IMG/VR virus record: IMGVR_UViG_3300044959_000080
Location: 1 to 39,920 of that record
From: a virus
DNA length: 39,920 nucleotides
Strand: one strand, 5' to 3'
The notes beneath the pieces were generated by a model. That model was given only the letters and a program-made list of their open reading frames with translations, searched no databases and was not told the DNA's origin. Positions within the stretch are counted from its first letter, which is position 1. Each line of letters opens with the position of its first letter. Position numbers and translations under genes: made by a program. This document shows, in pieces, positions 129 to 35,159 of this stretch.

Positions 129-161
129 GTTGCACCAACCCTGTACTGCCGTACTTGGTTC

Positions 162-1091: not shown

Positions 1092-1108
1092 GCTTTATTC
1101 ACCCCTCA

Positions 1109-2547: not shown

Positions 2548-2604
2548 CTAACTCACCCACCCACTTTCTTTCATTTGACGAAACCAATCCAAAAAAGTTC
2601 CACC

Positions 2605-3126: not shown

Positions 3127-3140
3127 TCAACACCGCCTCA

Positions 3141-4198: not shown

Positions 4199-4199
4199 T

Positions 4200-6082: not shown

Positions 6083-6083
6083 A

Positions 6084-21186: not shown

Positions 21187-21750
21187 CTAACCACCCCTCA
21201 ACTGCTCCGCAACGGTCAACGCCACACCCACCGCACTGACTGCATGACGCCACTTACTGAACGGCACTAAGTCGCCCTCTTCAATCTGATACCACTGCCC
21301 TAAATAACGCTCTGTTTCGCGGCACATCTGCTCCGTTTTGCCTTTGGTAAAGGAAGGCTTACGGTGCGGGGGCACAAGGTAGATGGGACGACCGTCATGG
21401 ATGAACCCCAACGCCCCGACACAAACACCCGCTGCCATCACCGCGTCATAACTTGGACAGTACCCCGACTCCACACCGAACACCTCTGTCTTCCAAAACC
21501 GACGACACGCCCACCGTATGAACTTCACCGTCTTGAGATAGTCATCACCCAACTTCGCCCAGCCTAACACCAACTTGTACGGGGTGGCAAAGCAATAACC
21601 CCAAGTACCCCCCACATCGAACGCCAATATCGGGACGGTGAATGGGAAATCCTTACGGGGTCTGCCCTGATTCCTCAAATACACCCGCTCCTCGTAGTCC
21701 CATTCCACCTGACCACTTAGACGAATATCCATCCCCTCATGTTCCGTCAT
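21187..21750 (-). CDS. RuvC-like Holliday-junction resolvase (altered active site)
   Basis: The 187-aa protein shows the RuvC/RNase H fold order. Strand 1 is PILAFDVGGTWGYCFA with Asp45, strand 4 is EVFGVESGY with Glu94, and VPPHRKPSFTKGKTE resembles the VxP..xK..xG-T segment of RuvC. The terminal helix is WRHAVSAVGVALTVAEQL. His169 matches the His used by Thermus RuvC, but the final acidic residue (Asp in HAADAL-type helices) is Ser172. Resolvases trim branched DNA before packaging. The missing last acid means it may be weak, differently organised or inactive. The start is ATG 21750, four bases after the upstream stop. Confidence 0.55.
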   Translation of the reverse strand: MTEHEGMDIRLSGQVEWDYEERVYLRNQGRPRKDFPFTVPILAFDVGGTWGYCFATPYKLVLGWAKLGDDYLKTVKFIRWACRRFWKTEVFGVESGYCPSYDAVMAAGVCVGALGFIHDGRPIYLVPPHRKPSFTKGKTEQMCRETERYLGQWYQIEEGDLVPFSKWRHAVSAVGVALTVAEQLRGG

Positions 21751-21754
21751 CGTA

Positions 21755-22471
21755 TCACCACACCATCGGAGGCGGTTCCTCATTCAAACAGGACACCTGC
21801 TCAAAGTAGATGTACTGATGAACCCGCTGCGTAAAGTCGTCATAGGGAAATTGGTACAACTTCCAACCCTCACCCGTTGTGATGTACACGGCGTCCTTTT
21901 CAAACACCAAGTACAGGTCGGTATTCCACACTTTGTGTTGTATCGAATCGTAGCCCCACAGTGGAACCCCTGTGTCCTGAACATACTCAGGTTTGTACGG
22001 GAAGAGAAACTCAAACCACCAATTGACATACAGATTCAAAAACCCGTCCCCTAATTGGTGAATGAAGCAGGTGAACATCTCATCCCACAACGGGGAAAAG
22101 GGCAGGATTTTGAGCATATAGGTCTCTTCGTCGACCCATACTTCCGAATCCTCTACCTTGTTCACCACCCCATGAAACGAGAACGCAATCGGCACAACCG
22201 CCCAACGGGTACGGTACAGCGGATACTGACGCCGATTGCCCACCCATTCCTGAATGAGTCCCGTCTGGGTATAGTTGCCCTTTGACGACGCCATCAAAAC
22301 TCTCCCGTCATCTAAGCCCTCCACCCATCCTTTGTAGTAGGGCACAATTGCAGGAGATAACGGGTCGTCCGATACAGGCAAACCGATTTTGTCTATCCCG
22401 CCACAGAAGTAGGCTTTGAGCGTTTTGTAGTCCTCATACGGTTGCGGTGTCCATATTCGTCTCATCGTCAT
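21755..22471 (-). CDS. Hypothetical protein
   Basis: The 238-aa protein is rich in aromatic residues and beta-strand-like segments (RWAVVPIAFSFHGVVNKVED, NLYVNWWFEFLFPYKPEYV, DLYLVFEKDAVYITTGEGWK). It contains a DDGRVLMASSKGNYTQTGL stretch but no motif I can assign. Three near-adjacent ATGs (22474, 22471, 22465) follow AAGGGGGT; 22471 gives the best spacing. It lies in a run of overlapping small genes between the early promoter and the virion genes, so an early host-takeover or metabolic role is as likely as a structural one. Confidence 0.55.
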   Translation of the reverse strand: MTMRRIWTPQPYEDYKTLKAYFCGGIDKIGLPVSDDPLSPAIVPYYKGWVEGLDDGRVLMASSKGNYTQTGLIQEWVGNRRQYPLYRTRWAVVPIAFSFHGVVNKVEDSEVWVDEETYMLKILPFSPLWDEMFTCFIHQLGDGFLNLYVNWWFEFLFPYKPEYVQDTGVPLWGYDSIQHKVWNTDLYLVFEKDAVYITTGEGWKLYQFPYDDFTQRVHQYIYFEQVSCLNEEPPPMVW

Positions 22472-22769
22472 CATACCCCCTTAGGTCGGCAACCGCTAAC
22501 GGTACATAGTCGCAGCGTCTATAAACCCCGACGGTCAGTTCACCGTTGCGCCACTGGGCATATAACTCGGACGGTATCAATTCGTTTTTGACCCGTCCGT
22601 AAGTGTTCGTTAGCCATACCCGTACAGGCACTTCGATTTTGCGGAGTTGGCTCAAGGAATACGGCAGGAAACAGACCTGACCGAACATCTGCCACATCAC
22701 CCCGCGTCCCGTACGCACCATATCCGCTGCTTCCGAAACAGGTGTCCCTTCGCATGGATTGTCCCTCAT
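22434..22769 (-). CDS. Hypothetical protein
   Basis: The 111-aa protein has a central beta-rich part (RKIEVPVRVWLTNTYGRVKN) and an acidic C-terminus (DLRGYDDDETNMD). No family is recognised. ATG 22769 shares a base with the upstream stop (TGATG) and follows AAGGGGGG seven bases earlier. The 3' end overlaps the next gene by about 38 bases, an unusually long overlap even for this compact arm. Confidence 0.55.
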   Translation of the reverse strand: MRDNPCEGTPVSEAADMVRTGRGVMWQMFGQVCFLPYSLSQLRKIEVPVRVWLTNTYGRVKNELIPSELYAQWRNGELTVGVYRRCDYVPLAVADLRGYDDDETNMDTATV

Positions 22770-23407
22770 CACGAAGCCCCCCTTAGATAGTCGATGATTT
22801 TGAACGCATACGCCAACGACGGAGACGGGTGGTCTTGGGCATGCTGTAAGCCCAGTATCGGCACACCCATCTCCGCGTTCGGCAAATAGAAGACCCGATT
22901 ACAGAACTGACCGTATATTGTCTCTTCGGGGTTCACCGTTTCGTCCCCGATGAGCAAAAAGAGAATCGGCTGAGGGTCGGTTTGAGGATGGTATTTGCGT
23001 AGCAGGCTCAGCGTTGCGTCCCACAAACCCACCGCCGTTTTGAAATGACGGGTGTCAGGTGTCCATTCGCTCAGCACACTTCCCGAAACGATGACGGTGG
23101 TCTTGGACTGATAAAGTTGGTACACCGTATGCCACAGGTTCGTTCGATGGATGTGCCACCATAACCGACGCAGTTTCGGGTCAGATGGAAACAACTCAGA
23201 ACCTGCCCCGTCATCCAACACCACACTGGGCGTAATCAGCCGATTCAACAACTGCGCCGTTTTGCGGACATACTTGGACACCCCATCCAAGAGGATGACA
23301 TACGGGGGTTGGAAGGTCAGATGTCCCTGCCACCCCACCGTAAAGGGCGGGTTCGCATTCCATAGGTCATACATCAGTTGCACATCGTTCTGTTTTATGA
23401 GTGTCAT
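22769..23407 (-). CDS. Hypothetical protein with uracil-DNA-glycosylase-like motifs
   Basis: The 212-aa protein contains QDHPSPSLAYAF (residues 191-202), matching the HPSP active-site loop of family-1 uracil-DNA glycosylases. It is preceded by QPILFLLIGDE (146-156), resembling the strand before it (VVFxLWG). An upstream YVILLDGVSKY (36-46) occupies the place of the VxxGQDPYH water-activating loop but lacks its Asp and His. If homologous it would be a degenerate, probably non-catalytic member, comparable in idea to processivity-type UDG relatives. The evidence is local, so chance similarity is possible. A near-perfect GGAGGTGAT seven bases before ATG 23407 fixes the start. Confidence 0.4.
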   Translation of the reverse strand: MTLIKQNDVQLMYDLWNANPPFTVGWQGHLTFQPPYVILLDGVSKYVRKTAQLLNRLITPSVVLDDGAGSELFPSDPKLRRLWWHIHRTNLWHTVYQLYQSKTTVIVSGSVLSEWTPDTRHFKTAVGLWDATLSLLRKYHPQTDPQPILFLLIGDETVNPEETIYGQFCNRVFYLPNAEMGVPILGLQHAQDHPSPSLAYAFKIIDYLRGAS

Positions 23408-23678
23408 AGTATATCACCTCCAACGGTGGTGTTTGTAAGATGTGGTGGACAACCTGAATCTCTTCGTGGCTGGGTTCGCCTTTGAATTCGCCCTGTTTGC
23501 TTACGGGGTCGTAAATATACAGGATGTTGCCGTTGGTGCGGTTTTTGAGTACCGCATAGCCCCCGTTGCGGTATTCGACCACGAGGCTGTGCCACCGTAG
23601 TTCAAAGTTATTACGGTAGATTTTGACAAAGAAGTCAAACAGGTCATCGTAGTCCCATATCATGATTTTGTTGTTCAT
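23367..23678 (-). CDS. Hypothetical small protein
   Basis: The 103-aa protein (starts MNNKIMIWDYDDLFDFFVKI) combines an acidic/aromatic N-terminus with a compact beta meander (SLVVEYRNGGYAVLKNRTNG, NILYIYDPVSKQGEF). It is not recognised. The start at 23678 overlaps the last paralog stop by ATGA and follows GGGAG eight bases upstream; a longer frame to 23735 would run into the neighbour. Its 3' end overlaps the next gene by 41 bases, and it contains that gene's ribosome binding site. Confidence 0.55.
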   Translation of the reverse strand: MNNKIMIWDYDDLFDFFVKIYRNNFELRWHSLVVEYRNGGYAVLKNRTNGNILYIYDPVSKQGEFKGEPSHEEIQVVHHILQTPPLEVIYYDTHKTERCATDV

Positions 23679-24157
23679 TCGTCTGTCTCCCTGACGCTCC
23701 ACCATATCACCTTCCCTGCCTTTTCTTCGCTCCACTTATCTGGTTCCAAACCGATAAGTACCTCGTTCGTCGGTTGGTTCAGATTCCACCGAAAGACAAC
23801 TTCGATGTAGAGAAACACATCAAAATCGGAGAGGTAGGTCTCAACGACAAATCTGAAGAACACATCGTCGCCGTCAACGACCACATCCACATACTCATCG
23901 TGGTCAAACCATTTGAGTAGTTCAGGATTCTCATAAATCTCTTTGAACTGCGTCTTAGAAAAGACCAACTTCTTGTCGTTGGTCATCAACACCTGAACGG
24001 TGGTGTTGGCTTTTGCAACGGATACGGGGACGGTAAATAACACCCCGTCATCGGTACGACGGTAGGTAATACCGCCCAAACACTCCTTCGGCTCCGTGTT
24101 GTGGACGCTCTTTGCCCACTTCCAAATATCCCGCCACTCTTCAGTTCGGATTTTCAT
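23675..24157 (-). CDS. Tandem paralog family protein, copy 4
   Basis: The 160-aa protein is the last of four consecutive related genes. The shared plan is: an N-terminal helix W-x-x-x-W (TEEWRDIWKWAKSVHNTEP), GGITYRR, a hydrophobic strand (GVLFTVPVSV), and a polar strand with ND-K-V-F. Then come a helix (FKEIYENPELLKWF), DVVVDGDDVFFRF, a long strand (VFLYIEVVFRWNL) and a C-terminal helix AGKVIWWSV. The overall style is an alpha/beta fold of small early-gene type. Function is unknown. ATG 24157 is eight bases after GGAGG in GGAGGTGATACCG; the start overlaps the previous copy by 17 bases. Confidence 0.6.
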   Translation of the reverse strand: MKIRTEEWRDIWKWAKSVHNTEPKECLGGITYRRTDDGVLFTVPVSVAKANTTVQVLMTNDKKLVFSKTQFKEIYENPELLKWFDHDEYVDVVVDGDDVFFRFVVETYLSDFDVFLYIEVVFRWNLNQPTNEVLIGLEPDKWSEEKAGKVIWWSVRETDE

Positions 24158-24662
24158 CGGTATCACCTCCATCCAGCGATTTGATGGTCTCCCATAGCAA
24201 CTTCCCAATCATCTTGTGGTTCGGCTCGTCTTCCAAAAAACCAACCCATACCTGACTGTGTTTATCAAACAGGTTCAGTTCAAACACCACGATAACATAC
24301 GGATAGGCGTCCCAATCAGGCTGATACCCTTCCCAGTGGAACTGAAGTTGTATGATACTGCTGCCCACAACCTCTGTACGGTCAATCGGCGTATCGTAGA
24401 AGATGTGAACTAACTTCGGGTCTTGGTAAAGTTGACGGTACGGTGTCCACATAAACACCACCCGTTTGTTGTCCGTCAACAACACCGAAACGGTGGTTAG
24501 GGAGTCTTCGCGGTATAAGTCTAACCAGACAGGGATGTCGAAACAAACACCCCCATCACAACGGTAGTAGGTGATGTCCCCGTCCAACCGCTGTGGTTCG
24601 GTGTTCTGCACCTTCTGTGCCCAGTTCCATACTTTGCGCCACTGGTCTGTACCGAGTTTCAT
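24141..24662 (-). CDS. Tandem paralog family protein, copy 3
   Basis: The 173-aa protein shares with its neighbours DQWRKVWNWAQKVQNTEP, GDITYYR, GVCFDIPVWL, the TDNKRVVF strand, YRQLYQDPKLVHIFYD and the C-terminal GKLLWETI helix. The start follows GGAGGTGATACGC, a ribosome-binding segment nearly identical to that of copy 4 and of the small plus-strand gene at 27809. It shows no known motif, signal peptide or membrane segment. Being near the promoter, it is likely expressed early. Possible roles such as host inhibition or anti-defence are speculation based on position and duplication. Confidence 0.6.
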   Translation of the reverse strand: MKLGTDQWRKVWNWAQKVQNTEPQRLDGDITYYRCDGGVCFDIPVWLDLYREDSLTTVSVLLTDNKRVVFMWTPYRQLYQDPKLVHIFYDTPIDRTEVVGSSIIQLQFHWEGYQPDWDAYPYVIVVFELNLFDKHSQVWVGFLEDEPNHKMIGKLLWETIKSLDGGDTDENPN

Positions 24663-24683
24663 GCGTATCACCTCCATTAGTCA

Positions 24684-25205
24684 TTACGGATGGGGGGGGA
24701 GGGTAAGTTCCCGTTCCTGAAGAACCTTCCACAACCGCGTTCCAAACATCTCAAAATGCCACTCGTTGTCTTCTAATAACAAATCAACGACAAATCTGTT
24801 GTCAAGAAAATTGAGGTCAACATGAATCCAAACCATGATATAAAATCGAAGGTCTGGGCTATAAAAATCCCGCACAAACCGAATCGAAACAACAGGACGG
24901 TCTACGACTACCTCATCAATATACACATGTTCAAGGATGAATTTGAGCATCTCCAAATTACGATGGAGTTCAGTACACCTATTTACTGGATAATAAACCG
25001 TCCCGTTATCCGAAAGAACAAGGTATGCTTTGAGTTCAAAGTCAGCGTTCGTAATGGGACGGAGCGGAATTTCAAACCCCACCCAATCGTTTTGACGGTA
25101 ATAGGTAATACCGCCCACCAACTGTTGGGGTTCAGTATGCTTCACTTCCCGTGTCCACTGATTCAGTTTCTCCCACATCTCATGTACCTGCGGACTAATT
25201 CTCAT
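24684..25205 (-). CDS. Tandem paralog family protein, copy 2
   Basis: The 173-aa protein has HEMWEKLNQWTREVKHTEP, GGITYYR, WVGFEIPLRP, a SDNGTVYYPVNRCTELHR segment, DEVVVDRPVVSIRFV and a terminal GTRLWKVL helix, matching the pattern of copies 3 and 4. The central part is more divergent. The gene end and downstream bases (CCCCCCATCCGTAATGA before the next ribosome binding site) repeat the arrangement after copy 1, showing that the duplication unit included the gene junction. GAGGTGATAGCG precedes ATG 25205. Function is unknown. Confidence 0.6.
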   Translation of the reverse strand: MRISPQVHEMWEKLNQWTREVKHTEPQQLVGGITYYRQNDWVGFEIPLRPITNADFELKAYLVLSDNGTVYYPVNRCTELHRNLEMLKFILEHVYIDEVVVDRPVVSIRFVRDFYSPDLRFYIMVWIHVDLNFLDNRFVVDLLLEDNEWHFEMFGTRLWKVLQERELTLPPHP

Positions 25206-25215
25206 CGCTATCACC

Positions 25216-25713
25216 TCACTTCTCATTACGGGTGGGGGGCTGAATGAGTTCCCAGAGATACCGACCTAACTGCTCTACACCGTCGTCGTCTAAGTGAAAC
25301 ACCATCTGAATCACAACCAAAGACGCCACTTTGCAGAGCGTCATCTTAAAGAAGACACGAACGGTGGGGGGGTAATCCAGACCCGTAGCCATATCATACC
25401 CGAAAACAATAATTGGGTCGTCAACGCGAAATAGTTCCATTTTGTTGTTGACTAATTGAGCCACCAGTTCATGGTCGTTGTAGACCTCCATCAGGTCAAA
25501 GGGCTTGAAGTCCACGATACCCTCGTCGTAAACATCAAACGACACACATATCGGTCGGTCTAAATCGGGTGGTTGGAAGTCAAAGATGAACTTAACGCAA
25601 TCGTTGATTTGCCTACGGTAGGACACCACATCCGTAAGCCGACCTTCACCCGAAACGGTTTTTGTCCATTCATAGATACGCTGCCATACTTCGCTGGTCG
25701 GTTCAACAACCAT
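25216..25713 (-). CDS. Tandem paralog family protein, copy 1 (most divergent)
   Basis: The 165-aa protein is the first and most divergent copy. It keeps SEVWQRIYEWTKTVSGEG, VVSYRRQ, VKFIFDFQPP, YNDHELVAQLVNNK, DPIIVFGYD, a long amphipathic strand and the terminal GRYLWELIQPP helix, but lacks the TEP motif of copies 2-4. It lies 65 bases downstream of a strong promoter-like element (25779-25808), so it and the three following copies should be transcribed strongly and early. GGAGGTGAGGCAG precedes ATG 25713. The role is unknown. Confidence 0.55.
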   Translation of the reverse strand: MVVEPTSEVWQRIYEWTKTVSGEGRLTDVVSYRRQINDCVKFIFDFQPPDLDRPICVSFDVYDEGIVDFKPFDLMEVYNDHELVAQLVNNKMELFRVDDPIIVFGYDMATGLDYPPTVRVFFKMTLCKVASLVVIQMVFHLDDDGVEQLGRYLWELIQPPTRNEK

Positions 25714-25778: not shown

Positions 25779-25808
25779 AGTATACCCCACCGTTGTCAAA
25801 AAAGTCAA
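25779..25808 (-). promoter_or_regulatory. Sigma70-like promoter P3 (leftward)
   Basis: Reading the minus strand, TTGACT and TATACT are separated by exactly 18 bases whose 3' part is GACAACGGTGGGG. The -35 box overlaps the stop codon of the upstream gene. The element faces the four-paralog cluster, with its predicted start about 60 bases before ATG 25713. The same arrangement recurs at 26168-26197, 28147-28176 and 39648-39677. Confidence 0.8.
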
Positions 25809-26161
25809 GTCCTCATACGGTTGTGGTCTTCGCGGATACATCGGCGGATGATACGCATGGCTTTTTTCAGCAGCACCTCAACGCTATACGGGTTGGCAGG
25901 TATCAGCGATATGCGCTCTTGGGTATCCACCAACAGAACGGGGTGGTTAGGGTGGGTGGTGATATGCAACGAGTACCGACGACTCGGACATCGACCCACC
26001 GATACCACAACAGTCGGCGGAGATTCAAAGCCATATAACGGCTCCTTCCCCACGATGACCCGTCCATGACCAAACGACCGATGTACCCATCTTACATCGG
26101 GTAGTTCGGCGATGTCCAACACCTCATCGATGAACCGCTGCACCAAGTCCATGACGGTCAT
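25805..26161 (-). CDS. Hypothetical early protein, possibly leaderless
   Basis: The 118-aa protein (MTVMDLVQRFIDEV start) has a helix, a beta-rich centre (GRVIVGKEPLYGFESPPTVV, YSLHITTHPNHPVLLVDTQE) and a C-terminal basic helix (LLKKAMRIIRRCI). No family is recognised. The frame is open to an ATG at 26179, but that codon overlaps the promoter spacer; the -10 box (26168-26173) places the transcript start at about 26161, the A of the next ATG. The mRNA may therefore be leaderless, or start at the third ATG (26152). It is the first gene of the leftward arm. Confidence 0.55.
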   Translation of the reverse strand: MTVMDLVQRFIDEVLDIAELPDVRWVHRSFGHGRVIVGKEPLYGFESPPTVVVSVGRCPSRRYSLHITTHPNHPVLLVDTQERISLIPANPYSVEVLLKKAMRIIRRCIREDHNRMRT

Positions 26162-26167
26162 AGCCCT

Positions 26168-26197
26168 ATGATACCCCATCTACATCATCAAAATCAA
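26168..26197 (-). promoter_or_regulatory. Sigma70-like promoter P4 (leftward, outermost)
   Basis: On the minus strand TTGATT and TATCAT are separated by 18 bases ending GTAGATGGGG. This is the weakest match of the four related elements, but it keeps the TGGGG just before the -10 box. It would drive the 118-aa gene with little or no 5' leader. Confidence 0.65.
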
Positions 26198-26286
26198 GGG
26201 GTCATGTCTTTCCCCCCTAAGAACCCCCCTATATTAATATATACACATCCCCATATTATTATATATTATTTTATATTATTCTATGG

Positions 26287-26319
26287 AATATATTATAAAA
26301 TATAATATTATAATATATT
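26287..26319. repeat. AT-only inverted repeat
   Basis: AATATATTATAA and TTATAATATATT are perfect 12-base arms around a 9-base A/T loop, inside a tract with almost no G or C (about 26225-26345). Such DNA melts readily and would suit an unwinding element. Confidence 0.75.
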
Positions 26320-26348
26320 AGTTTATTATATAGTATAGTTTTTAGGTT

Positions 26349-26374
26349 AAGCGAATCGCGTTAGCGATTCGCTT
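26349..26374. repeat. Perfect hairpin, 11-base arms
   Basis: AAGCGAATCGC and GCGATTCGCTT pair perfectly around a GTTA loop. The right arm runs into TTTCG, so a weak rightward terminator is possible, but an origin or operator structure fits the surroundings better. The GCGAATCG core is echoed in the repeats that follow. Confidence 0.75.
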
Positions 26375-26401
26375 TCGTAAATCGAAATCGAATCGGTAAT
26401 C

Positions 26402-26462
26402 GAATCGTATTCGAAATGGGTTTCGGTTAACGGAATCGTATTCGTAATAGGGTTTAGGTTAA
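26402..26462 (+). repeat. Two tandem repeats of about 30 bases
   Basis: Unit 1 (26402-26430) and unit 2 (26433-26462) share GAATCGTATTCG, then AAT, GGGTTT and GGTTAA, differing at few positions. A partial unit (TTTAGGTTAAGCGAATCG) lies at 26341-26358 and extra AATCGAATCG cores at about 26387-26408. They look like iterons or multi-operator sites. Confidence 0.7.
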
Positions 26463-26481
26463 GTATTAGTATACTCATAAA

Positions 26482-26503
26482 GGGTTCGTCTTAAGACGAA
26501 CCC
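26482..26503. repeat. 22-bp perfect palindrome
   Basis: GGGTTCGTC-TTAA-GACGAACCC is fully self-complementary. A half site (AACGAACCCTA) recurs at about 26545-26555. A dimeric regulator or initiator site is the simplest reading; a T-rich tail for a terminator is absent on both sides. Confidence 0.75.
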
Positions 26504-26555
26504 ATTAAGAGTTAATATATATATTACGGGGGCTGAAAAAAAAAAACGAACCCTA

Positions 26556-26638
26556 CCCCCACCGTATCGTACATCATACCCCCACCGTAAACCCAAACCA
26601 TGCCCCCCCCACCGTAAAAGCCTATGACCCCCGCCGAT
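26556..26638 (+). repeat. Four C-rich repeats, CCCCCACCGTA type
   Basis: Copies begin at 26556, 26579, 26606 and a variant (CCCCCGCCGAT) at 26628, spaced 22-27 bases. On the opposite strand they read TACGGTGGGGG, which resembles the CGGTGGGG part of the promoter spacers. At 26579 it is even followed by TATGAT, but without a -35 box. Confidence 0.7.
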
Positions 26639-26657
26639 TTTTGAAGCGTTTCAATAG

Positions 26658-26720: not shown

Positions 26721-27773
26721 ATGGCAACCCCCGTATGGATGGCAGTTCATCGCCACGATGTGGCGGACAACCAGTGTGCGTTTTGGTCGTCGTTTGGTTC
26801 ACTGTTGCATGGCGGCTTCCGAATCGCCACCCGTATCCTCACCGCATGTCCAACCGCCCAAACAAAGGTTTGGACTTACACTTTTCCCGCTGCGCTTTAT
26901 GATTTGCAAAACCAACCCCGTACTTGGGTCGACTACGGCAACCCGTTTGAAGACTACGCACTCAACGACCTCCCCCGTTTGAATTCCACAACAGGACAAC
27001 CCATCATCGATTACCCGTCTACGGGTCGAAGGTACTGGGTCGATATGCTTCAAATCGACCCTGCAGAGGTTGCGAAACAACTCATACCGAAACTGAACCA
27101 ACTACTCCACCGCCGTATCGCCGACGACTCGGTGTTGTTGCAACTGCTCCGCGATTTCGGCACATCCTCGTCTCCGTCCGATTTAGACCGCAACGGTGTG
27201 GTGGATGACGCTGATTTGCTGCGGTTGCTGATGTGTTTCGGTCAGCCGTTTATTACTCAGCCACCGAATTTCGATGGGTTGTTTGAGGGCTACTTCATCG
27301 ATAACGCCCCTGAGTATCATCGATACTGGACGCAGTATGCAGGACGAACACCACAACAGGCGTTGGAAGGCTATGAGCGGTTTGTGCAGTTGCTCAAAAT
27401 CGTCAGCCCCACCGCGAAAATCTGTGCGAATGTGTACGAAGGAGCCGTTTTGGATACATGGAACGGCTTCTTGGATGTGGTCGATGTGGTCTTCTTTGAG
27501 AATTGGCGATGGCACTGGGCGACAGGAACCCCGTTATCGGACTCCGCCATTCAGACCATCGAACGCCGAATACGGAGATGTCTTTCGGCAGGGAAATCGG
27601 TGGTGTTGGGTGTCCCTCATGCGTTGGATTCAGCGGACGGCAACCAGAAAAAAGAGGCAGTGCGTACCGCGTTGCAGCGGTGGGGCGATGGAGTCGTCTT
27701 TGCTGAGTACCGAAAATCCTTTTACAGAGGCAGAGAAGTTGGCTACCCCCGTCCCGTTCGGGAACTTTTCTGA
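26721..27773 (+). CDS. TIM-barrel glycoside-hydrolase-like protein with embedded dockerin motif
   Basis: The 350-aa protein has segments typical of uncharacterised (alpha/beta)8 glycosidase-like families. RYWVDMLQIDPAEVAKQLIP is followed by GLFEGYFIDNAPE (acid candidate Asp194), then AKICANVYE, a DVVFFENWRW segment (candidate Glu260), KSVVLGVPHALDS and a terminal VFAEYR. Inserted at about residues 130-175 is a dockerin-like pair: a degenerate ADDSVLLQLLRDFG half and a good EF-hand half, DLDRNGVVDDADLLRLLMCF (Asp154, Asp156, Asn158, Asp165). Possible roles are a capsule/S-layer-degrading or host-surface enzyme. GAGG four bases before the ATG supports the start, and the frame has a stop just upstream. 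There is no signal peptide. It may be a captured host gene. Confidence 0.6.
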   Translation: MATPVWMAVHRHDVADNQCAFWSSFGSLLHGGFRIATRILTACPTAQTKVWTYTFPAALYDLQNQPRTWVDYGNPFEDYALNDLPRLNSTTGQPIIDYPSTGRRYWVDMLQIDPAEVAKQLIPKLNQLLHRRIADDSVLLQLLRDFGTSSSPSDLDRNGVVDDADLLRLLMCFGQPFITQPPNFDGLFEGYFIDNAPEYHRYWTQYAGRTPQQALEGYERFVQLLKIVSPTAKICANVYEGAVLDTWNGFLDVVDVVFFENWRWHWATGTPLSDSAIQTIERRIRRCLSAGKSVVLGVPHALDSADGNQKKEAVRTALQRWGDGVVFAEYRKSFYRGREVGYPRPVRELF

Positions 27774-27808: not shown

Positions 27809-28135
27809 ATGTTCAATCAGGAACCGACGAAGGATGATATTCGGCAACTGCTACAGGAAGCGTCCGAGTTTCCACTCGGTGTTTTAGTCAACGGCGTCGT
27901 GGTTCATCAAGGTCTATGGGACAACGCACACAACCAAGACGCATTTGGCTTCGATGAACCCAACGAGGATTCGGCGGTGATGACCATCGACGAGGCGGTG
28001 GAGCGTATTACACCAGAGGGCTACACCTTCCTTTTTGCGCTTTACCGTAGTTTTGTACGAGGGGTGATTTTCGCCAACCAGCGGGAACTTTTGCACCCTA
28101 CATCCTCGTATAAAGTCGTGTATCCCCCCAATTGA
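27809..28135 (+). CDS. Hypothetical protein
   Basis: The 108-aa protein (MFNQEPTKDDIRQLLQEASE start) has a helix, a short hairpin (PLGVLVNGVVVHQGL), an acidic middle (FGFDEPNEDSAVMTIDEAVE) and a hydrophobic segment (GYTFLFALYRSFVRGVIF). It is not recognised. ATG 27809 follows GGAGGTGATACGA, the same initiation segment (with an upstream CCGTAATG) used in the leftward paralog cluster, although the proteins are not similar. Confidence 0.6.
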   Translation: MFNQEPTKDDIRQLLQEASEFPLGVLVNGVVVHQGLWDNAHNQDAFGFDEPNEDSAVMTIDEAVERITPEGYTFLFALYRSFVRGVIFANQRELLHPTSSYKVVYPPN

Positions 28136-28146
28136 CGGGGGGGGGG

Positions 28147-28176
28147 TTGACATTTGTGTCATCGATGGGGTATACT
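28147..28176 (+). promoter_or_regulatory. Sigma70-like promoter P1 (rightward, replication genes)
   Basis: A consensus TTGACA and TATACT are separated by 18 bases ending CATCGATGGGG. It follows a run of ten G at 28137-28146 and lies 43 bases before the annealing-protein ATG. It is the best match of the four related elements and probably drives the replication and tail genes. Confidence 0.85.
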
Positions 28177-28218
28177 ACTCACCGATGAATCAAACCAAAC
28201 ACAAGGAGGCTGAGACCT

Positions 28219-29040
28219 ATGGCTAAAACGAAGGTAGTGGAAGAGCAGGTGGTGCAGACGAACGGTCTGCTGAAGCGGATGATGGAGCAACTAACGGCTC
28301 CCATCGAGGGTACGCAGATGACCATCGGTCAGTCGCGGACAGGTGAACCCATCACCCGACCGTATGTGCCTTTGAAGAATGTGCTGCGTCGGCTGTGGAC
28401 GGTGCTTGAGTCGCCGTTTGACGCTTCGATTGAGACCATCATGAACTGGGACTATGACGACTTCCGCCAAATCGTGGTGGTGGCTTCGATTACCCTGCAG
28501 ACCGAACAGGGCGAAATCATCGTGGACGGTGTGGGGTCGACCGTTGTTCGACGCGACGCAAACCAACAACTCCACGAGAACGCCGTTTCGGCTGCGTACT
28601 CCAAAGCCATCAAGAACGCAGCGAAGTTCTTGGGTATCGGACTCGACATCGAAACCGATGAGGAAGTCCCTGAGGTGGTTCGCCCCCGACCGTCTAATGA
28701 TGAGGTGTACGCCCAGTTAGCCCAAAACGAAAACGCGGACGAGGTGCTTCGTGTGGCGAAGTGGTTCGTGGAGCGGGTTTGGGGTATCGAACCCGAAGGC
28801 GACGGTCTACAGGATGTTTTTGAGTCGATGATACAGCAACTCGGTAAAACCTCTGACGGTAAGGCGATTTCGCCCAAGCAACTCTTCCACTGGTTCCGTC
28901 GTCGTGGCTACGAGAACTACCTCAGCGAACAGGACGACCTACTGACCGACCCACCAACGGCGGACGACATCAAACGAGACCTTGACCGTTTGTTTGACAA
29001 ACGGGAACAAAACGGGAACCAACCCCGTAATAGAAGGTAG
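28219..29040 (+). CDS. Rad52-like single-strand annealing protein
   Basis: The 273-aa protein carries the Rad52/Rad22-type core. Beta strands WDYDDFRQIVVVASITLQTE and EIIVDGVGST (about 77-107) lead to a conserved helix HENAVSAAYSKAIKNAAKFL and GIGLDI (119-143), the DNA-binding turn of this family. The C-terminal part is acidic and flexible, ending in a polar tail. Such proteins pair complementary strands in phage recombination and replication restart. It is transcribed from promoter P1 with AAGGAGG nine bases before the ATG, at the head of the replication cassette, and would act with the Cas4-like nuclease encoded downstream. Confidence 0.72.
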   Translation: MAKTKVVEEQVVQTNGLLKRMMEQLTAPIEGTQMTIGQSRTGEPITRPYVPLKNVLRRLWTVLESPFDASIETIMNWDYDDFRQIVVVASITLQTEQGEIIVDGVGSTVVRRDANQQLHENAVSAAYSKAIKNAAKFLGIGLDIETDEEVPEVVRPRPSNDEVYAQLAQNENADEVLRVAKWFVERVWGIEPEGDGLQDVFESMIQQLGKTSDGKAISPKQLFHWFRRRGYENYLSEQDDLLTDPPTADDIKRDLDRLFDKREQNGNQPRNRR

Positions 29041-29051
29041 CATGGTCGCAG

Positions 29052-29076
29052 CGGGGTGAGGTCAAACCTCACCCCG
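29052..29076. terminator. Strong hairpin between annealing and primase-helicase genes
   Basis: CGGGGTGAGGT and ACCTCACCCCG are perfect 11-base arms around a CAA loop. No T run follows on either strand, so it is not a classic intrinsic terminator. Attenuation, RNA protection or processing of the cassette transcript are alternatives. Confidence 0.5.
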
Positions 29077-29103
29077 ACACCCAAACCCTAAACAGGAGGT
29101 GTA

Positions 29104-32100
29104 ATGATGACAACGAAGACACAGCAGACGATTGAGCGGTTGGTAGAGACGCTGAAGGCGCAGTATCCGTTTCGGTACATCACCCTGCGCTCTGCGGAAC
29201 GAAGTGAGGACGGTGCGCACAAGCAACCCCTGCACCGTTGGGGCGATTCTCAATATCAGTACGACACTTATGAGAAAGCGACACAGGGTGGTCGTCGTGG
29301 GGTTGGGTTGGTGATACCGAAAGGAATCTTGGTGGTGGATGTGGACGCCAAGACGAACACCCCAGAGGTATTGAATCGTTGGAAGGACTACGCGGTGCAG
29401 CACCGTGTCCCGATTGGTCGTACCGCAACGGGGGGTTGGCATTTGATGTTTCGGTGCGACCCGTCCCAGTTTCGGGGTGTAGTACAGCAGGACTTGGGTG
29501 ATTGGGGTATCGTCGATTTGCGCACAGAGGGCAACTACATCGCCATCACCCACCCGTTATACAAGTGGTATCTGCCCCCAGAGTGGAGTGGTGGGCTTCC
29601 TCAGGTTCCTGACATCATTCAACAGATTCAGTGGACGGAATCGACCACCAAAGCCGTTGTTCACAAGTTCCTGAGTGGCGAAGTGGTGGAAGATGGTGGT
29701 CGCAACCAAGCACTGACGCTGATGGCGTTATTTAGCATGGGTCTGTATGAAGCCCTTACGGGTGAGGTCATGGATGATGAGATGTTCGATGAGGTTCGGG
29801 ATTGGCTGAATGACCACTTCGTGGATGAGCCTGAAGAGAAGTTCGCTCAAGACCGAAGCCTTTACGACCGCCTGCTGAGGTATAATAAGGATGGTGTGAA
29901 GCACTATGCGCTGTCGATGTTGCGGAAAAACGCCACCAATCCGCGACTGAAGACGCTGCTGAGTGTGATGGGATTGCAGTCCGAAGCCGAACAAAAATTC
30001 GGCGCAGTGGCGACTACGAACGGTAAGTCGCACCACCCGATTACGGAGAAGGATACGGTCTATGAAGTGCAGTGGTGGAAGGGCGACCTGTATGAGCGGA
30101 CACCCCGACTACGGTGGGTCGTGGACGGTTTGATGGCGTTGGGCGATTTGGTCTTGGTGGCTGCTCCCCCGAAGGCGGGGAAGACCACCCTCATCCACGA
30201 GTTGGGGTTTAGTATCGCCACAGGCAATCCGTTCTATGGCATGCCGACGAACAAGTGTCAGGTGGCGTACTGGTTCAACGACGAAACGCCTGAGGGTGAA
30301 GGCGAACGGGTGCGGTTGTATGCAGAGCGGTTTGGGATTGACTTCCGCACCTACCCGTATTTGCTCTATGCGTTCCATCCCGTATTCCCGTTCGGGAAAT
30401 TCCTTGAGTTTGTGCGGAAGACGCTGCACCACTCCGTACTGTTTATTGATGTGGTGGGTCGTTTCATGGAAGAGGTGAACGACTACGGCTATGTGCAGCG
30501 GTTCCTGTCCGAGTTGAAGCAGGTGGCGGTGGAGAACCAGTTGTGTATCATCTGCGTCCATCATGCGTCGAAGAATGAGCCTCGTAATCCCATCGGTTCG
30601 ACGGCGTTTACGGGTGGGTTCGACCAGATGATATTTTTGCAGAAGGACGACGAGGGCTATGTGCATGTGAGTATGGATGGTCGCCGTCCGAAGCGGGGTC
30701 GGTTCACCCTGCGGTTCAACGAACAGGGCTTCTTGGTAATGGACGATATGCGTCCGAACTTGGGTCGATATATGACGACCCTGAAGCGTATCTTCAGCCA
30801 CAGCAACTACATCTTTGCGGACAAGTTGGACAAAGACGAAGCGGATGTGCTGCTGAAGTTGCACCGTAAAGGGCTGGTGCAGATGAAGACCAACAAGGAA
30901 GGCGACATCTACTTCCGCATTCCGTCGGATGTCCATCACCTACTGCAGCGTTTGAAGGCGGAGGTTGAGGAGATGGAACGATTTGCTGAGCGTATCGGCG
31001 ACGCAACGGACTGGACGGTGTATCAGACGGTTTCTTCCCTACCATCCGACACCATCTCTGACCCATCAACCACCCAACCCACACAGCCAACGCCCATAGA
31101 CGGTGGGGGTGCTGTAAGCGAAGCGGGTGCGTCAGAACATGATGACGACCCCGACCCCACGACGCCCCCACCGTCATCTTTTGACGCTTATGAATATGAC
31201 TGGTTAGACGAATTGGACGACGGGGTTTTGCACACCTCCTACCCGTCGTCTGACGAGGGCAGCGGGGTTTTGCACACTTCCTACCCGCTGACCCCTGAAG
31301 GGGACGAGGGGCTGCTCACCTTCACCTCGTCCCCCCTCCCTGATGACACGGACATCGACGAGTTTGCTGCGCTTTTGGAGCAGTGGGCGGAAGAGGATTT
31401 AGCACAAAACACAGAACAAGGGGGTGATACGATGGTCGCAGCACCAGCACCACCGAAGACGCCGACGAAGCCACCGAAGAAGCCGAAGTACGGTGGTGGT
31501 GAGGGCGATGAGGACGAGGAGTCTGCACAGGGCGGGGACGACTACTTCACTCTACAGGGTAAGGGCGCAGACCCCATCGTCCCAGAAGAGGACAGCCTCG
31601 ACGAACAGCAGCGACTCATGAATGAGTTGGTCGCCTTGTATGACCGAATCCGCCAACTTCAGGAGCAGCCCACGAAGGTACAACCCGTCAGGACGGACTT
31701 ATCATCGGCTCCTTCGTTTCCGTATCCTGATTCCCCGCCTGACGGGTTGCCTTTGTGGGAAGACCTGTTTGAGCAGGTGGCAAAGACGGGTCAGCCGTTG
31801 GGCTATGGCTGGTCGAAGTGTCCACCTGAGTTGTACAAGTGGTTTGTGATGAACTACCCCGTCATCTTCTTGTACAACGCCCACTACGACGGCTGTTTTC
31901 GGATGGCGGAAGCCATCATTCGCAAACGGCAGGTACATCTCCCACCGAAGACGATTGAGATGGCGAAGAAGTGGGCGGACGCAAAACGGGTGGTCATACG
32001 GTCGCCGATGTGGCGGAAGGTGCAGAATAAGAAGACCGAGTTTGACCTCACCAACCTACCGTATCAGCAACGCTTGGCTGCGATACTCCTCAGTCTGCTC

Positions 32101-32208
32101 AGCGCACAAGAGGCGTATCAGCGGTTGATGGAGAAGTACGGTTCGGCTCCGAAACTCCAAGACCTCTACAAAGGTTGGTTCGCGTATGTTCAGGAGGTGG
32201 AAGAGTGA
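29104..32208 (+). CDS. Prim-pol / RecA-like helicase fusion
   Basis: The 1034-aa protein joins an archaeo-eukaryotic primase-polymerase domain to a RepA/DnaB-like ATPase. The prim-pol has VVDVDAK with Asp79/Asp81, TATGGWHLMF at 107-116 and DLRTEGNYI at 138-146. The ATPase has Walker A APPKAGKTT at 354-362, Walker B VLFIDV at 445-450, VHHASK at 485-490 and GSTAFTGGFDQM at 498-509. A winged-helix-like segment follows (about 560-620). Then comes an acidic linker with two GVLHTSYP repeats (about 705 and 721) and a C-terminal part after Met777 of unknown fold (GYGWSKCPPELYKWFVMNYP). It would prime and unwind at the fork. AGGAGG precedes two adjacent ATGs (29104, 29107). Confidence 0.85.
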   Translation: MMTTKTQQTIERLVETLKAQYPFRYITLRSAERSEDGAHKQPLHRWGDSQYQYDTYEKATQGGRRGVGLVIPKGILVVDVDAKTNTPEVLNRWKDYAVQHRVPIGRTATGGWHLMFRCDPSQFRGVVQQDLGDWGIVDLRTEGNYIAITHPLYKWYLPPEWSGGLPQVPDIIQQIQWTESTTKAVVHKFLSGEVVEDGGRNQALTLMALFSMGLYEALTGEVMDDEMFDEVRDWLNDHFVDEPEEKFAQDRSLYDRLLRYNKDGVKHYALSMLRKNATNPRLKTLLSVMGLQSEAEQKFGAVATTNGKSHHPITEKDTVYEVQWWKGDLYERTPRLRWVVDGLMALGDLVLVAAPPKAGKTTLIHELGFSIATGNPFYGMPTNKCQVAYWFNDETPEGEGERVRLYAERFGIDFRTYPYLLYAFHPVFPFGKFLEFVRKTLHHSVLFIDVVGRFMEEVNDYGYVQRFLSELKQVAVENQLCIICVHHASKNEPRNPIGSTAFTGGFDQMIFLQKDDEGYVHVSMDGRRPKRGRFTLRFNEQGFLVMDDMRPNLGRYMTTLKRIFSHSNYIFADKLDKDEADVLLKLHRKGLVQMKTNKEGDIYFRIPSDVHHLLQRLKAEVEEMERFAERIGDATDWTVYQTVSSLPSDTISDPSTTQPTQPTPIDGGGAVSEAGASEHDDDPDPTTPPPSSFDAYEYDWLDELDDGVLHTSYPSSDEGSGVLHTSYPLTPEGDEGLLTFTSSPLPDDTDIDEFAALLEQWAEEDLAQNTEQGGDTMVAAPAPPKTPTKPPKKPKYGGGEGDEDEESAQGGDDYFTLQGKGADPIVPEEDSLDEQQRLMNELVALYDRIRQLQEQPTKVQPVRTDLSSAPSFPYPDSPPDGLPLWEDLFEQVAKTGQPLGYGWSKCPPELYKWFVMNYPVIFLYNAHYDGCFRMAEAIIRKRQVHLPPKTIEMAKKWADAKRVVIRSPMWRKVQNKKTEFDLTNLPYQQRLAAILLSLLSAQEAYQRLMEKYGSAPKLQDLYKGWFAYVQEVEE
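31432..32208 (+). CDS. Possible internal in-frame product of the primase-helicase gene
   Basis: Inside the 1034-aa frame, GGGGGTGATACG directly precedes ATG 31432 and matches the GGAGGTGATACG initiation segment used elsewhere in this genome. Initiation here would make a separate 258-aa protein. It would have a Pro/Lys-rich start (PKTPTKPPKKPKY), an acidic stretch, a helix (LMNELVALYDRIRQL) and the C-terminal globular part. The boundary coincides with a disordered linker, as expected for a real internal start. It could act as an accessory subunit of the helicase. Confidence 0.35.
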   Translation: MVAAPAPPKTPTKPPKKPKYGGGEGDEDEESAQGGDDYFTLQGKGADPIVPEEDSLDEQQRLMNELVALYDRIRQLQEQPTKVQPVRTDLSSAPSFPYPDSPPDGLPLWEDLFEQVAKTGQPLGYGWSKCPPELYKWFVMNYPVIFLYNAHYDGCFRMAEAIIRKRQVHLPPKTIEMAKKWADAKRVVIRSPMWRKVQNKKTEFDLTNLPYQQRLAAILLSLLSAQEAYQRLMEKYGSAPKLQDLYKGWFAYVQEVEE

Positions 32209-33053
32209 AGTGGGGCACAGATGTTGGCTCCTACACCTTATACATCAATTGGCAGCAGTGCCCATATCGGGTCTATTTGATGGGTCAGGACGAGGTACAG
32301 TCGTTGCTTTTCCCCCCGTTATTGAAGGGGCTGGTACTCCATAAGGCGTTGGAGTGGTTAGCCAACGGGGAGGTGGATGTCCATCATCGGTTCGATGAGT
32401 TATATGAGGCGATACTGACTCCCCGTTCTGACCTACTGCCCCATCAGTCTAAACGGCATGTAGTTTGGTATCCGCCTTATGACGAGGCGGACTTCCTGAA
32501 ACAACTCAGGAGCGAACTGGTGTGGTTTTGCAAAACGGCGCAGCCGTTGCTTCATGGTAGAGAGATGAAGGCGGAGTTGGAGTTAGAACGCGACTTTCGG
32601 CAGTGGGTTTTCAGGGGGCACATCGATTTGGTCTTAGACGGTGTGCCGATTGACCTCAAAACGGGGCGTACCTTTGGGTTGAACCAGTTCCTGTTATATA
32701 GTTGGCTGTTGCATGGGTTCACAGACGAAGACCATCCGTTTGAGGTCTGGTTATGGGATGGTTGGCAACTGACCCAGAAGCCGTATCGGTTTTGGATGTC
32801 GGAGAATAACCCGACGCTGATGAAGTTGCTGTGGTCGATGGTGGAGACGGTGGAACAAACCCGCGACGGCTACCGTATCTTAGAAGAGGGTGCGCCTGTA
32901 TGGAAGGCGTTCCTGCCCAAGACGCGGAACTACACCTGTGCCCCCAACCGTTGTTCGTATTTCAACATCTGTGAATACGGTCAGAGGAAACTCAAACGAA
33001 CAAACGAATTACAGGAGGTGGCAGAAGATGAAACTACGCAGATGGAGGGATGA
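32205..33053 (+). CDS. Cas4/RecB-like PD-(D/E)XK nuclease with Fe-S cysteines
   Basis: The 282-aa nuclease has an N-terminal Cys19 (QQCPYR), LHKALE (His46), ELELERDF, GHIDLVLDG (Asp141) and VPIDLKTG (Asp150, Lys152), then a QFLLYSW helix, and C-terminal CAPNRCSYFNIC (Cys245, Cys250, Cys256). One N-terminal and three C-terminal cysteines are the Fe-S staple arrangement of Cas4/AddB-type nucleases. It likely resects ends for the annealing protein. The start is GTG 32205, seven bases after AGGAGG and overlapping the previous stop (GTGA). No CRISPR array or cas1/cas2 is present, so a recombination role is favoured. Confidence 0.82.
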   Translation: MKWGTDVGSYTLYINWQQCPYRVYLMGQDEVQSLLFPPLLKGLVLHKALEWLANGEVDVHHRFDELYEAILTPRSDLLPHQSKRHVVWYPPYDEADFLKQLRSELVWFCKTAQPLLHGREMKAELELERDFRQWVFRGHIDLVLDGVPIDLKTGRTFGLNQFLLYSWLLHGFTDEDHPFEVWLWDGWQLTQKPYRFWMSENNPTLMKLLWSMVETVEQTRDGYRILEEGAPVWKAFLPKTRNYTCAPNRCSYFNICEYGQRKLKRTNELQEVAEDETTQMEG

Positions 33054-34932
33054 TGGCTATGAAGACCGTTCGTATGCTCAGCCGTCTACGGTCTATGACC
33101 ATATTGGTCATTCGGTCTACTCAGTCTTCGCTGAAGGCTATTCGGCGGTGGCTCCGCGACCGAACAGTAAAGACTCGTATCGGTTGAACCCGTATGCGGT
33201 GCTGCACTTAGTCGACCCGCAACCGATACCGAAAATGGTGGTTGCGGTCGATGTCGAGGTCGACCCCCAGACCGAAGAGGTAATGATGGTGGGGTTAGGC
33301 ATGACCCCGATGGGTCTGGGGGAAGAATTTCTTTTCCTGATGGGGATATTTTCTCCCCATGATACGGTGGAAATCCTCAACGAACAGTGGTTCGATTTGC
33401 TGGTGGGTTATAACCTGTACGGTTATGACATGGACTACTTGGTCAAATATGGGTTGCAGGGCACATGGTTGGAGACGGTCAAGTTCCGCTATGGCGACCG
33501 TATTGAGGATTTGGAGGTTCCCTTTGCGTCGTACCCCATCGTGGACTTGTATAGGGTGGTGCAGCGGTGGGATGTAGAGAACGGTGGGGTCTTGGAGTCG
33601 TTCACCCTGAAGGATGTCGGTCGATTCTTTGGGTGGGGTCGATATGCGACGGACGACTTTTTAGAGGCGTATCGGTTAGGTACGGTAGAGGATTACCTAT
33701 TGGACGACCTATGGCAGACTTTGGGGTTAGCGTTGGCGCATATCCCTGCGTTGAGCGTCAAGTCGCGGATGTTGTGTTTTGATATTCAGCGGATGACGGT
33801 GTTGGGGACGGGTACGCTGATTGATACCCTGCTGATGTTGCCGTATTGGTTGTTCGGGTTGAACATCCCGAAGCGTCCGAAGGGTAGAGAAGACTACGAA
33901 GGGGCGTATGTATATGCCCAGCCCACCGTACGGAAGGGGCATATCTTCACCGTCGACTTCACATCGCTGTACCCGTCGATTGTGGAGCATGAACGCCTGC
34001 GCCCCCGTCATGACTTCTTGGGCATGTTCTGGGAAGGGGTCGCGTTCCTGAAGCGTTTGCGGGTTCAGTACAAACGGCAGAATACGCCGTTGAGTCAGAA
34101 CCTGCAGGCGTCTTTGAAAATCGTCATCAACTCAGCGTATGGCTATCACGGCAGCCGTTTCGCCTTTTCGGATATTGAGGTCGCAAAGGCGATTACCTCA
34201 ACGGGTCGTTGGAAGGTGCAGGAATTAGTGCGGTTAGCGGATTCTTTTGGGGAGGTCGTTCTGGTCGATACGGACGGGATTGTGGTGGATGGCGACGCCG
34301 TATCACCCAGAGACCTACAGGATTGGCTCAACATGCGTCTACACCCGTATCAGGTAGAAGTGGACAAGTATGACGGGGTAGTTGTCATAGCGCAGAAGAA
34401 CTATGTGCTTTTCAGGAACGACCGTATCGTCAAGGTGAAGGGGAACTCGTTGCGTAATCGGAGCGACGAAAAGTACATCAAAGACCTCTTACGCAATTTG
34501 ATTTACCACCTCTACGAATCGGGTTCGATTGAGTATGGCGATGTGGTGGCAGAGGTAGCGAAACGGTTCAAAGACCTCATGAAAAACCCTGAGCGGTTAG
34601 TGAAGACGCAGCGGGTGGGTAAGTTTATGCGGATGTATCGGTCGGAAGTCGTAGAGGACTTAGCGGACGGTGAGCGGGTATCGATGGTGAAGTACAAAGA
34701 CGGTTGGGTAAGACTAAACGACCCTTCCGAACTTGACCCCACCCGTATCGATTGGGAGTACTATCTGCAGAAGACTTTCAGTGCGGTGGGTCGGTTGGGT
34801 GGCGTCTTTGAGCAGGTAGCGAACGACCATTTGAAGAAGAAGGCTATGCAGCGGTTCAGTGATGATTACGGGTTAGGCTTAGCCATCCTGAAGAGCCGTC
34901 AGCGGAACAGGGAGCAGATGAGTCTCGTCTAA
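33028..34932 (+). CDS. Family B DNA polymerase with 3'-5' exonuclease
   Basis: The 634-aa polymerase contains exo I VAVDVEVD (Asp75, Glu77), exo II GYNLYGYD (Asn129, Asp134) and exo III YLLDD (Tyr223, Asp227). Motif A is DFTSLYPSI (310-318), motif B is KIVINSAYG (Lys364-Gly372) and motif C is VDTDG (Asp414, Asp416). KVKGNSLRN follows in the thumb-side region. It is shorter than the roughly 770-aa archaeal enzymes, and I see no protein-priming TPR insert, fitting priming by the prim-pol. ATG 33028 lies nine bases after AGGAGG and overlaps the nuclease gene by 26 bases. The frame is open further upstream, but the overlap argues against a longer protein. Confidence 0.92.
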   Translation: MKLRRWRDDGYEDRSYAQPSTVYDHIGHSVYSVFAEGYSAVAPRPNSKDSYRLNPYAVLHLVDPQPIPKMVVAVDVEVDPQTEEVMMVGLGMTPMGLGEEFLFLMGIFSPHDTVEILNEQWFDLLVGYNLYGYDMDYLVKYGLQGTWLETVKFRYGDRIEDLEVPFASYPIVDLYRVVQRWDVENGGVLESFTLKDVGRFFGWGRYATDDFLEAYRLGTVEDYLLDDLWQTLGLALAHIPALSVKSRMLCFDIQRMTVLGTGTLIDTLLMLPYWLFGLNIPKRPKGREDYEGAYVYAQPTVRKGHIFTVDFTSLYPSIVEHERLRPRHDFLGMFWEGVAFLKRLRVQYKRQNTPLSQNLQASLKIVINSAYGYHGSRFAFSDIEVAKAITSTGRWKVQELVRLADSFGEVVLVDTDGIVVDGDAVSPRDLQDWLNMRLHPYQVEVDKYDGVVVIAQKNYVLFRNDRIVKVKGNSLRNRSDEKYIKDLLRNLIYHLYESGSIEYGDVVAEVAKRFKDLMKNPERLVKTQRVGKFMRMYRSEVVEDLADGERVSMVKYKDGWVRLNDPSELDPTRIDWEYYLQKTFSAVGRLGGVFEQVANDHLKKKAMQRFSDDYGLGLAILKSRQRNREQMSLV

Positions 34933-34950
34933 TCGTGGGGTGGCTATGGG

Positions 34951-35136
34951 ATGAAGAAGAAGGCTTCGAAGTCTGGTTCTGCTGCGAAGGCGAAGATACG
35001 GAAGGTGATGAGGGAGTTTGAGCAGGGTGAGTTGAACATCGGCAAATCGGACAAGAAGGTCAAAGACCGTAAGCAGGCGGTTGCGATTGCGTTGCGTCAG
35101 GCTGCTGAACTTGTGAAAAGGAAAAGAAGTCGGTAA
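34951..35136 (+). CDS. DUF6496-like small basic protein
   Basis: The 61-aa Lys-rich protein has KIRKVMREFEQGELNIGK followed by KKVKDRKQAVAIALRQAAEL. This matches the VMxEFxxGxLxxG...VKxRKQAIAIAL pattern of DUF6496-type proteins, which are widespread in phages and bacteria and have unknown function. The charge suggests nucleic-acid contact. It sits in the short space between the polymerase and the tail genes, with only a loose GTGGGG ribosome binding site ahead of the ATG. Confidence 0.7.
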   Translation: MKKKASKSGSAAKAKIRKVMREFEQGELNIGKSDKKVKDRKQAVAIALRQAAELVKRKRSR

Positions 35137-35159
35137 TCTTTCCTGCGTAGGAGGAAACC

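Follow-up and report, generated by a model that had tools for sequence, protein, structure and literature searches.

Four tandem paralogs in the leftward operon

Four tandem genes, here called A-D, lie near the head of a leftward (minus-strand) operon at 23675-25713 of the IMG/VR record IMGVR_UViG_3300044959_000080, whose 39,920 bases are referred to below as the window. Gene A (25216-25713, 165 aa; 25713 is the first base of its ATG) is followed on the minus strand by B (24684-25205, 173 aa), C (24141-24662, 173 aa) and D (23675-24157, 160 aa; 23675 is the last base of its stop codon). By their coordinates the genes are tightly spaced, with gaps of 10 bases between A and B and 21 bases between B and C, and with D overlapping the end of C by 17 bases. 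An earlier note on this DNA had described four tandem paralogs of 160-173 aa at this position; the coordinates proved exact, and the paralogy was confirmed by BLASTP as well as by profile searches.

The BLASTP comparison linked C to D (35% identity, 8e-32), B to C (27%, 1e-16), B to D (29%, 6e-13) and A to B (22%, 5e-5), and the matches of A, the most divergent paralog, to C and D were weak (0.02-0.09). Local-alignment z scores (200 shuffles) ranged from 5.3 for A-C to 46.6 for C-D. When one copy at a time was left out of the profile, the omitted copy was recovered from among 1,169 ORFs from six phage records (C at 1.8e-33, D at 2.1e-31, B at 1.6e-27 and A at 7e-10), with the best non-family match at 0.026 or worse. 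Similarity is mostly highest between adjacent copies (C-D above B-C above A-B), with B-D at 29% slightly above B-C at 27% as the exception, a pattern that roughly fits serial tandem duplication. A fifth paralog among genes E, F, G, H, I, J and U was rejected (z at most 2.2 against A-D; probability under 1% in a profile comparison of E, F, G, H, I and U), as was an internal duplication within the A-D proteins (profile comparison probability 0.4%).

The motifs read from the sequence in the earlier note, W-x5-W, SYRR/TYYR/TYRR and a terminal LW/IW, were found in the alignment of the copies, and TEP is indeed confined to three of them (B, C and D). Twelve columns are invariant (M1, W8, W14, V18, Y32, R34, V39, F41, V99, V138, G153 and W157 in C numbering). 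They are mostly aromatic or hydrophobic, R34 is the sole charged residue, and D, E, H, K, C, S and T are all absent; the lack of a candidate catalytic set argues against a conserved catalytic site and suggests that A-D are binding proteins or scaffolds, not enzymes. All four proteins, 160-173 aa long, are acidic, with a pI of 4.5-5.3 and a net charge of -8 to -12.

The strong divergence outside the shared motifs that had been claimed for the copies is real, with nucleotide identities in the codon alignment of only 0.39-0.53. Synonymous sites are saturated for five of the six pairs, and the sixth has a dS of 2.4; pN (0.40-0.55) lies below pS (0.72-0.83) throughout. The copies are thus old and constrained, and the rapid divergence that had also been claimed did not hold up. 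Since the divergence is old and the synonymous sites are saturated, an arms-race rate cannot be claimed for A-D, and a recent or positively selected duplication is likewise unsupported.

The gene junctions had been read as duplicated too, and this was borne out in part. CCGTAAT precedes A, B and C and is absent before D, and as it occurs 17 times in the window (4.8 expected) it is a weak sign of duplication on its own. Longer junction repeats (23 nt at 78%, 17 nt at 94% and 20 nt at 85-90% identity) support duplication of gene and junction together. The other junction element, GGAGGTGAT, is uninformative on duplication, because it is also found before gene F and matches the bacterial Shine-Dalgarno consensus. 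A separate 20-base repeat with one difference occurs at 25808-25827, just upstream of the -35 of the A-D promoter, and at 22429-22448, in the junction of genes G and H.

Promoter class and neighbouring genes

A promoter-like site reading TTGACT-18-TATACT, with TGGGG before the -10 and 10 of 12 matches in the promoter scan, lies at 25779-25808 on the minus strand ahead of A. The simple scan of the region returned 10 promoter-like sites where 5.8 were expected, and taken alone it gives weak support for this promoter. In a stricter scan of the whole record, the site (25808-25779, minus strand) resembled those at 28147 (plus strand) and at 39648 (plus strand, near the right end), all three having TTGAC[AT] and TAT[AG][CA]T separated by an 18-base spacer with TGGGG at its end. 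The second of these, TTGACA-18-TATACT at 28147-28176, stands before the replication operon; promoter and motif scans placed a further site of the same class, TTGATT-18-TATCAT at 26168-26197 on the minus strand, before gene U.

The motif TGKGGTATNNT was matched five times in the window against 0.63 expected (30 first-order Markov sequences, largest count 3), although these counts overstate the significance because the motif was defined after the sites had been seen. Four of the five matches come with a -35 that agrees at 4 or more of 6 positions; the fifth, at 29503, lies inside the helicase gene and is without a -35. The related phage record G002 contains six matches against 0.2 expected (largest count 1) and serves as an only partly independent check: one (8134) precedes its rightward replication operon, and five (7552, 4812, 3221, 2560 and 1921) are on the minus strand ahead of leftward accessory genes, several of them tandem duplicates unrelated to A-D; the last four sites lie about 20 bases before an ATG, 3221 without a good -35. 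Among the other related records there were two matches in G299, one in G005 and none in G001 or G007. Taken together, the promoter sequences support early-type expression of A-D from the promoter class of the replication operon.

The genes had been described as standing right after a strong early promoter. The promoter and its class, which is that of the replication operon, were recovered, and A is the first gene after its own promoter; it is not the first leftward gene, as it is preceded by gene U (25805-26161, minus strand), which encodes an orphan basic protein. The ORF listed for U starts at 26179, but this longest frame begins inside the -10 of its own promoter, and the real start is probably the ATG at 26161, which fits the promoter better. 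Downstream of A-D, gene E (23367-23678, minus strand), an orphan, overlaps the stop of D and is not a paralog of A-D by z score and profile comparison, and gene F (22769-23407, minus strand) was also an orphan in family searches and in comparison with A-D. Gene I (21187-21783, minus strand) is RuvC-like, with 31% identity to the RuvC-like protein of the leftward operon of G002. The stretch HACDAVG of that homologue, whose aspartate we presume from the motif to be catalytic, reads HAVSAVG in gene I, which may thus have lost one presumed catalytic aspartate.

Genome layout and probable host

The window belongs to a tailed phage and has two divergent arms. Structural genes lie downstream of A-D on the same strand. 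By PHROG and Pfam matches the minus strand encodes the capsid protein (165-1091), portal (4418-6112), endolysin-like amidase (6299-6796) and terminase (6741-8282), and the plus strand a PrimPol/AAA helicase (29104-32205), an exonuclease (32175-33050) and a DNA polymerase (32890-34929). Between the arms, near the point at which the cumulative GC skew turns, is an AT-rich, palindrome-bearing stretch of about 26.2-26.65 kb. Overlapping palindromes and TCGAATCGTATTCG-like repeats occupy 26220-26640 between the divergent operons, making this stretch a candidate replication origin or control region. The sequence CCCACCGTA occurs 11 times in the genome against 0.36 expected, with three intergenic copies in a row at 26558-26616. 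These three copies suggested a regulatory role, but ACGGTGG is itself enriched genome-wide (40 against 8.3 expected; not enriched in the five related records counted), possibly through codon use.

The plus-strand arm starts with a gene (26721-27773) whose product shows dockerin-like repeats by eye. Relatives of this protein were found at eight genome loci, all labelled Armatimonadota or hot-spring bins (five Fimbriimonadales, one 'Bacterium HR15' and two 'Armatimonadetes bacterium DC'), the best with 39% identity over residues 2-334. Because all the relatives come from such bins, the host is probably a thermophilic bacterium of the Fimbriimonadales (Armatimonadota), and the dockerin-like gene was possibly captured from it. 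Incomplete prophage regions are listed for Fimbriimonadales bins in a published paper (PMC8597652). In our own search of the host phylum, the terminase search matched none of 291 genomes at E <= 1e-10. The phage capsid profile matched 119 of the 291, mostly once each and in a frame of about 300-330 aa. One match (L050, 5642-6535) is preceded by genes that read as terminase and portal by eye, and another (L049, 6267-7196) is without terminase- or portal-like neighbours; these capsid-like proteins could represent a widespread domesticated phage cluster, a gene transfer agent or an encapsulin-like protein.

Related phages

The capsid alignment had matches in only seven IMG/VR loci; four of these are close (62-65% identity) and three distant (28-30%), and a portal search added one more related record, G299. 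G002 (42,021 bases) has the capsid, portal, terminase, endolysin, polymerase, exonuclease and RuvC-like genes in common with the window. Its leftward operon (120-7640) lies apart from the oppositely oriented structural genes and encodes the RuvC-like protein, a weak match to a Holliday junction resolvase family (phrog_1770, E 0.0036), as well as a Rad52-family protein (E 1.2e-6). Self-comparison revealed four tandem or cassette paralog pairs in this operon, with 41-47% identity (2751-3212/120-734, 3212-3541/1535-1939, 3555-4256/1973-2875 and 6842-7234/7203-7640, all leftward); the first three seem to stem from duplication of a single cassette of three genes. Dropped from the count were an antisense shadow (2174-2386/3717-3956) and rows of overlapping frames with 2286-2735, apparently due to promoter leaders that are repeated. 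None of the G002 pairs is related to A-D.

The equivalent operon of G002 thus has other content and tandem paralogs of its own, as expected of a fast-turnover accessory locus, an argument drawn from two phages, the leftward operon being readable in G002 alone of the related phages. Three tandem genes in G005 were not counted as an analogue, as by eye they resemble helix-turn-helix repressors.

Differences were also seen elsewhere in these genomes. A second tandem paralog set adjoins the major capsid gene of the window (1109-1786, 1870-2547 and 2605-3126, minus strand; 33-41% identity). At the corresponding position G002 and G001 each have a single homologous gene, and G299 has two tandem paralogs whose relation to the set in the window is not significant; the copy number of this capsid-adjacent gene seems to vary between phages. 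Furthermore, four genes that lie behind the polymerase on the other arm of the window (34951-39635, plus strand) are found between terminase and endolysin in G002 (27892-35172), which indicates rearrangement between related phages.

Homology searches and predicted structure

No homologues of A-D were found in Pfam, PHROGs, NCBIfam, PADLOC, PDB sequences or phage and plasmid records; within PHROGs no match was better than E 0.15. C gave a weak Pfam tail-tube match (E 0.078, 13.2 bits against a cut-off of 28.2) that A, B and D did not. No known anti-defence family was matched in Pfam, PHROGs or NCBIfam, PADLOC being a collection that covers defence proteins. Searches of the viral contigs of IMG/VR with C, C plus D, and B found no relatives, at a reach limited to close relatives since these searches need short exact peptide matches and may miss distant ones. 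The A-D profile matched none of the eight related records (G001-G007 and G299, with G003 and G004 being short fragments), and in the same search it found the window's own four copies as a positive control. In the probable host phylum it had no match in 291 genomes at E <= 0.1; an E 0.33 match in one of 5 host-phylum genomes covered 35 residues with an internal stop and was dropped as chance. The literature on Armatimonadota phages was sparse in the searches made, and a literature search on tandem paralog arrays of phages returned nothing on the A-D family. The earlier note had named clear homology to a known structural or metabolic family as evidence against its proposal, and none emerged from the family, viral or host-phylum searches. 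The protein family thus appears to be undescribed in the collections searched, albeit tandem arrays of small early phage genes are already known as a kind.

An AlphaFold2 model of C from the four-sequence alignment reached a pLDDT of 75.4 and a pTM of 0.72, the five models spanning pLDDT 75.4 to 46.6. It is predicted to run from a helix through four strands, helices and further strands between residues 98 and 142 to a final helix. The model of D has the same order without the middle helix but is too poor (pLDDT 54.5) for fold searches, and this agreement in order covers two of the four copies. With the C model, Foldseek gave no match at E <= 0.001 in the PDB (none of 1,350 rows up to E 10) or in a viral library (none of 986), and the best Z from VIA-align 2 was 4.7, with none of 999 chains at 5 or more. 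No known fold was therefore recognised with confidence for the predicted structure. Type III secretion chaperone or YbjN-like folds, considered because of the helix-strands-helix-strands-helix order, were not among the rows of the fold searches and may still apply. Superposition of the model's second sheet with Pur-alpha repeats gave Z 3.0-3.7 and rmsd 2.0-2.6 for 43-49 residues, the Z values lying within the chance range for a four-strand meander. The order of strands and helices in the C model suits the two beta-beta-beta-beta-alpha units of Pur-alpha/Whirly-like nucleic-acid binders. The fold of Pur-alpha repeats I-II resembles the model in having two units, each with antiparallel strands and then a helix, in the same order, but the match covers only about 45 residues, and A-D differ in their acidity and in an additional helix at the N terminus.

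Possible functions of A-D

Our preferred reading, to which we give slightly less than an even chance, is that A-D form a diversified set of early proteins, encoded in an accessory operon, that bind host or defence targets. The genes, an ancient tandem expansion of a single family of small, acidic and presumably soluble alpha/beta proteins, would be transcribed from the early-type promoter and, judging by the promoter class, produced alongside the replication proteins. Each paralog would bind and block a host target, either a defence protein or a host factor that needs to be shut off, and the copies would have been retained because their specificities diverged, with a different target for each. 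By analogy, host- or defence-targeting inhibitors fit best for genes that are accessory, early-type, tandemly diversified and without recognisable catalysis. A different kind of inhibition, DNA mimicry, seems doubtful: Ocr-like mimics carry extreme negative charge along the chain, whereas A-D are acidic but only mildly charged (net -8 to -12, pI 4.5-5.3). A wider proposal, which we regard as rather doubtful, is that this phage group uses its leftward operon as a locus dedicated to diversifying anti-defence genes, with A-D as a new inhibitor fold class directed against Armatimonadota defences. The recurring strong promoter and the RuvC-like and Rad52-like genes would then accompany repeated tandem duplication of unrelated small genes, and each phage would carry its own home-grown, diversified inhibitor family.

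The proteins might instead be subunits of one hetero-oligomer with a phage-internal job, for example in DNA binding or in replication and recombination, each paralog having a fixed place. The RuvC-like gene in the same operon and the promoter class common with the replication genes would suit such a complex, as would the two strand groups with helices in the C model, the second sheet of which superposes on Pur-alpha repeats. We nevertheless consider it unlikely, since A-D are acidic, the Pur-alpha Z values are in the chance range, no internal repeat was detected (probability 0.4%), and the family is absent from G002 even though that phage keeps the replication genes. It is more improbable that A-D are virion proteins, or are packaged inside the particle and injected with the DNA, as the internal proteins of T4 are reported to be (PMC9391042). 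In the window the downstream structural genes do lie on the A-D strand, which would be compatible with a late or virion role, and another tandem paralog set adjoins the major capsid gene; against this, the leftward operon of G002 stands apart from oppositely oriented structural genes, and the promoter class of A-D is that of the replication operon.

An accessory role that serves phage or host in some way other than blocking a defence system, such as superinfection exclusion or an antitoxin-like activity, would agree with small, variable proteins in an accessory position for which homologues were not detected, yet nothing specific points there, and we rate it as low as a place in the virion. 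A neutral or dosage duplication with redundant copies would be in keeping with the recurrence of tandem duplicates in this phage group. This seems very improbable, however, as redundant copies are expected to decay in a compact genome and all four genes are intact and constrained (pN 0.40-0.55 against pS 0.72-0.83).

Comparison with known systems

Our reading of A-D as host- or defence-binding proteins has its closest parallels in anti-defence loci of other viruses. Rudiviruses with AcrID1 are hot-spring viruses, a likeness to this phage. They are reported to carry clusters of duplicated AcrID1 genes, and anti-defence genes of archaeal viruses have been predicted via a conserved strong early promoter (PMC11065993). 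The AcrID1 clusters are like A-D in that several diverged copies lie close together as early genes behind a conserved strong promoter (PMC11065993). They are unlike A-D in belonging to archaeal viruses; the general family searches brought up no sequence relation between the two, and the activity of A-D is putative. If our reading is true, related phages could likewise be searched for further genes of this sort by means of the promoter class, and if A-D block defences they would offer four ready-made variants for specificity mapping (cf. PMC11065993).

In phage T6, SegB is reported to drive amplification of anti-defence loci, the likeness being the segmental duplication of anti-defence genes (PMC13096335). 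The present locus differs from what is described there in that no homing endonuclease was identified beside A-D, and the recombination gene in their operon is RuvC-like.

Phage T4 gains copies of tifA, an inhibitor of toxin-antitoxin defence, by recombination to overcome toxIN, and the authors suggest that the dmd-tifA region may be an anti-TA island (PMC9391042). As in A-D, the genes of that region encode small accessory proteins in an operon, whose copy number in T4 is raised by recombination. The extra tifA copies arose recently, under laboratory conditions (PMC9391042), whereas A-D are old and strongly diverged.
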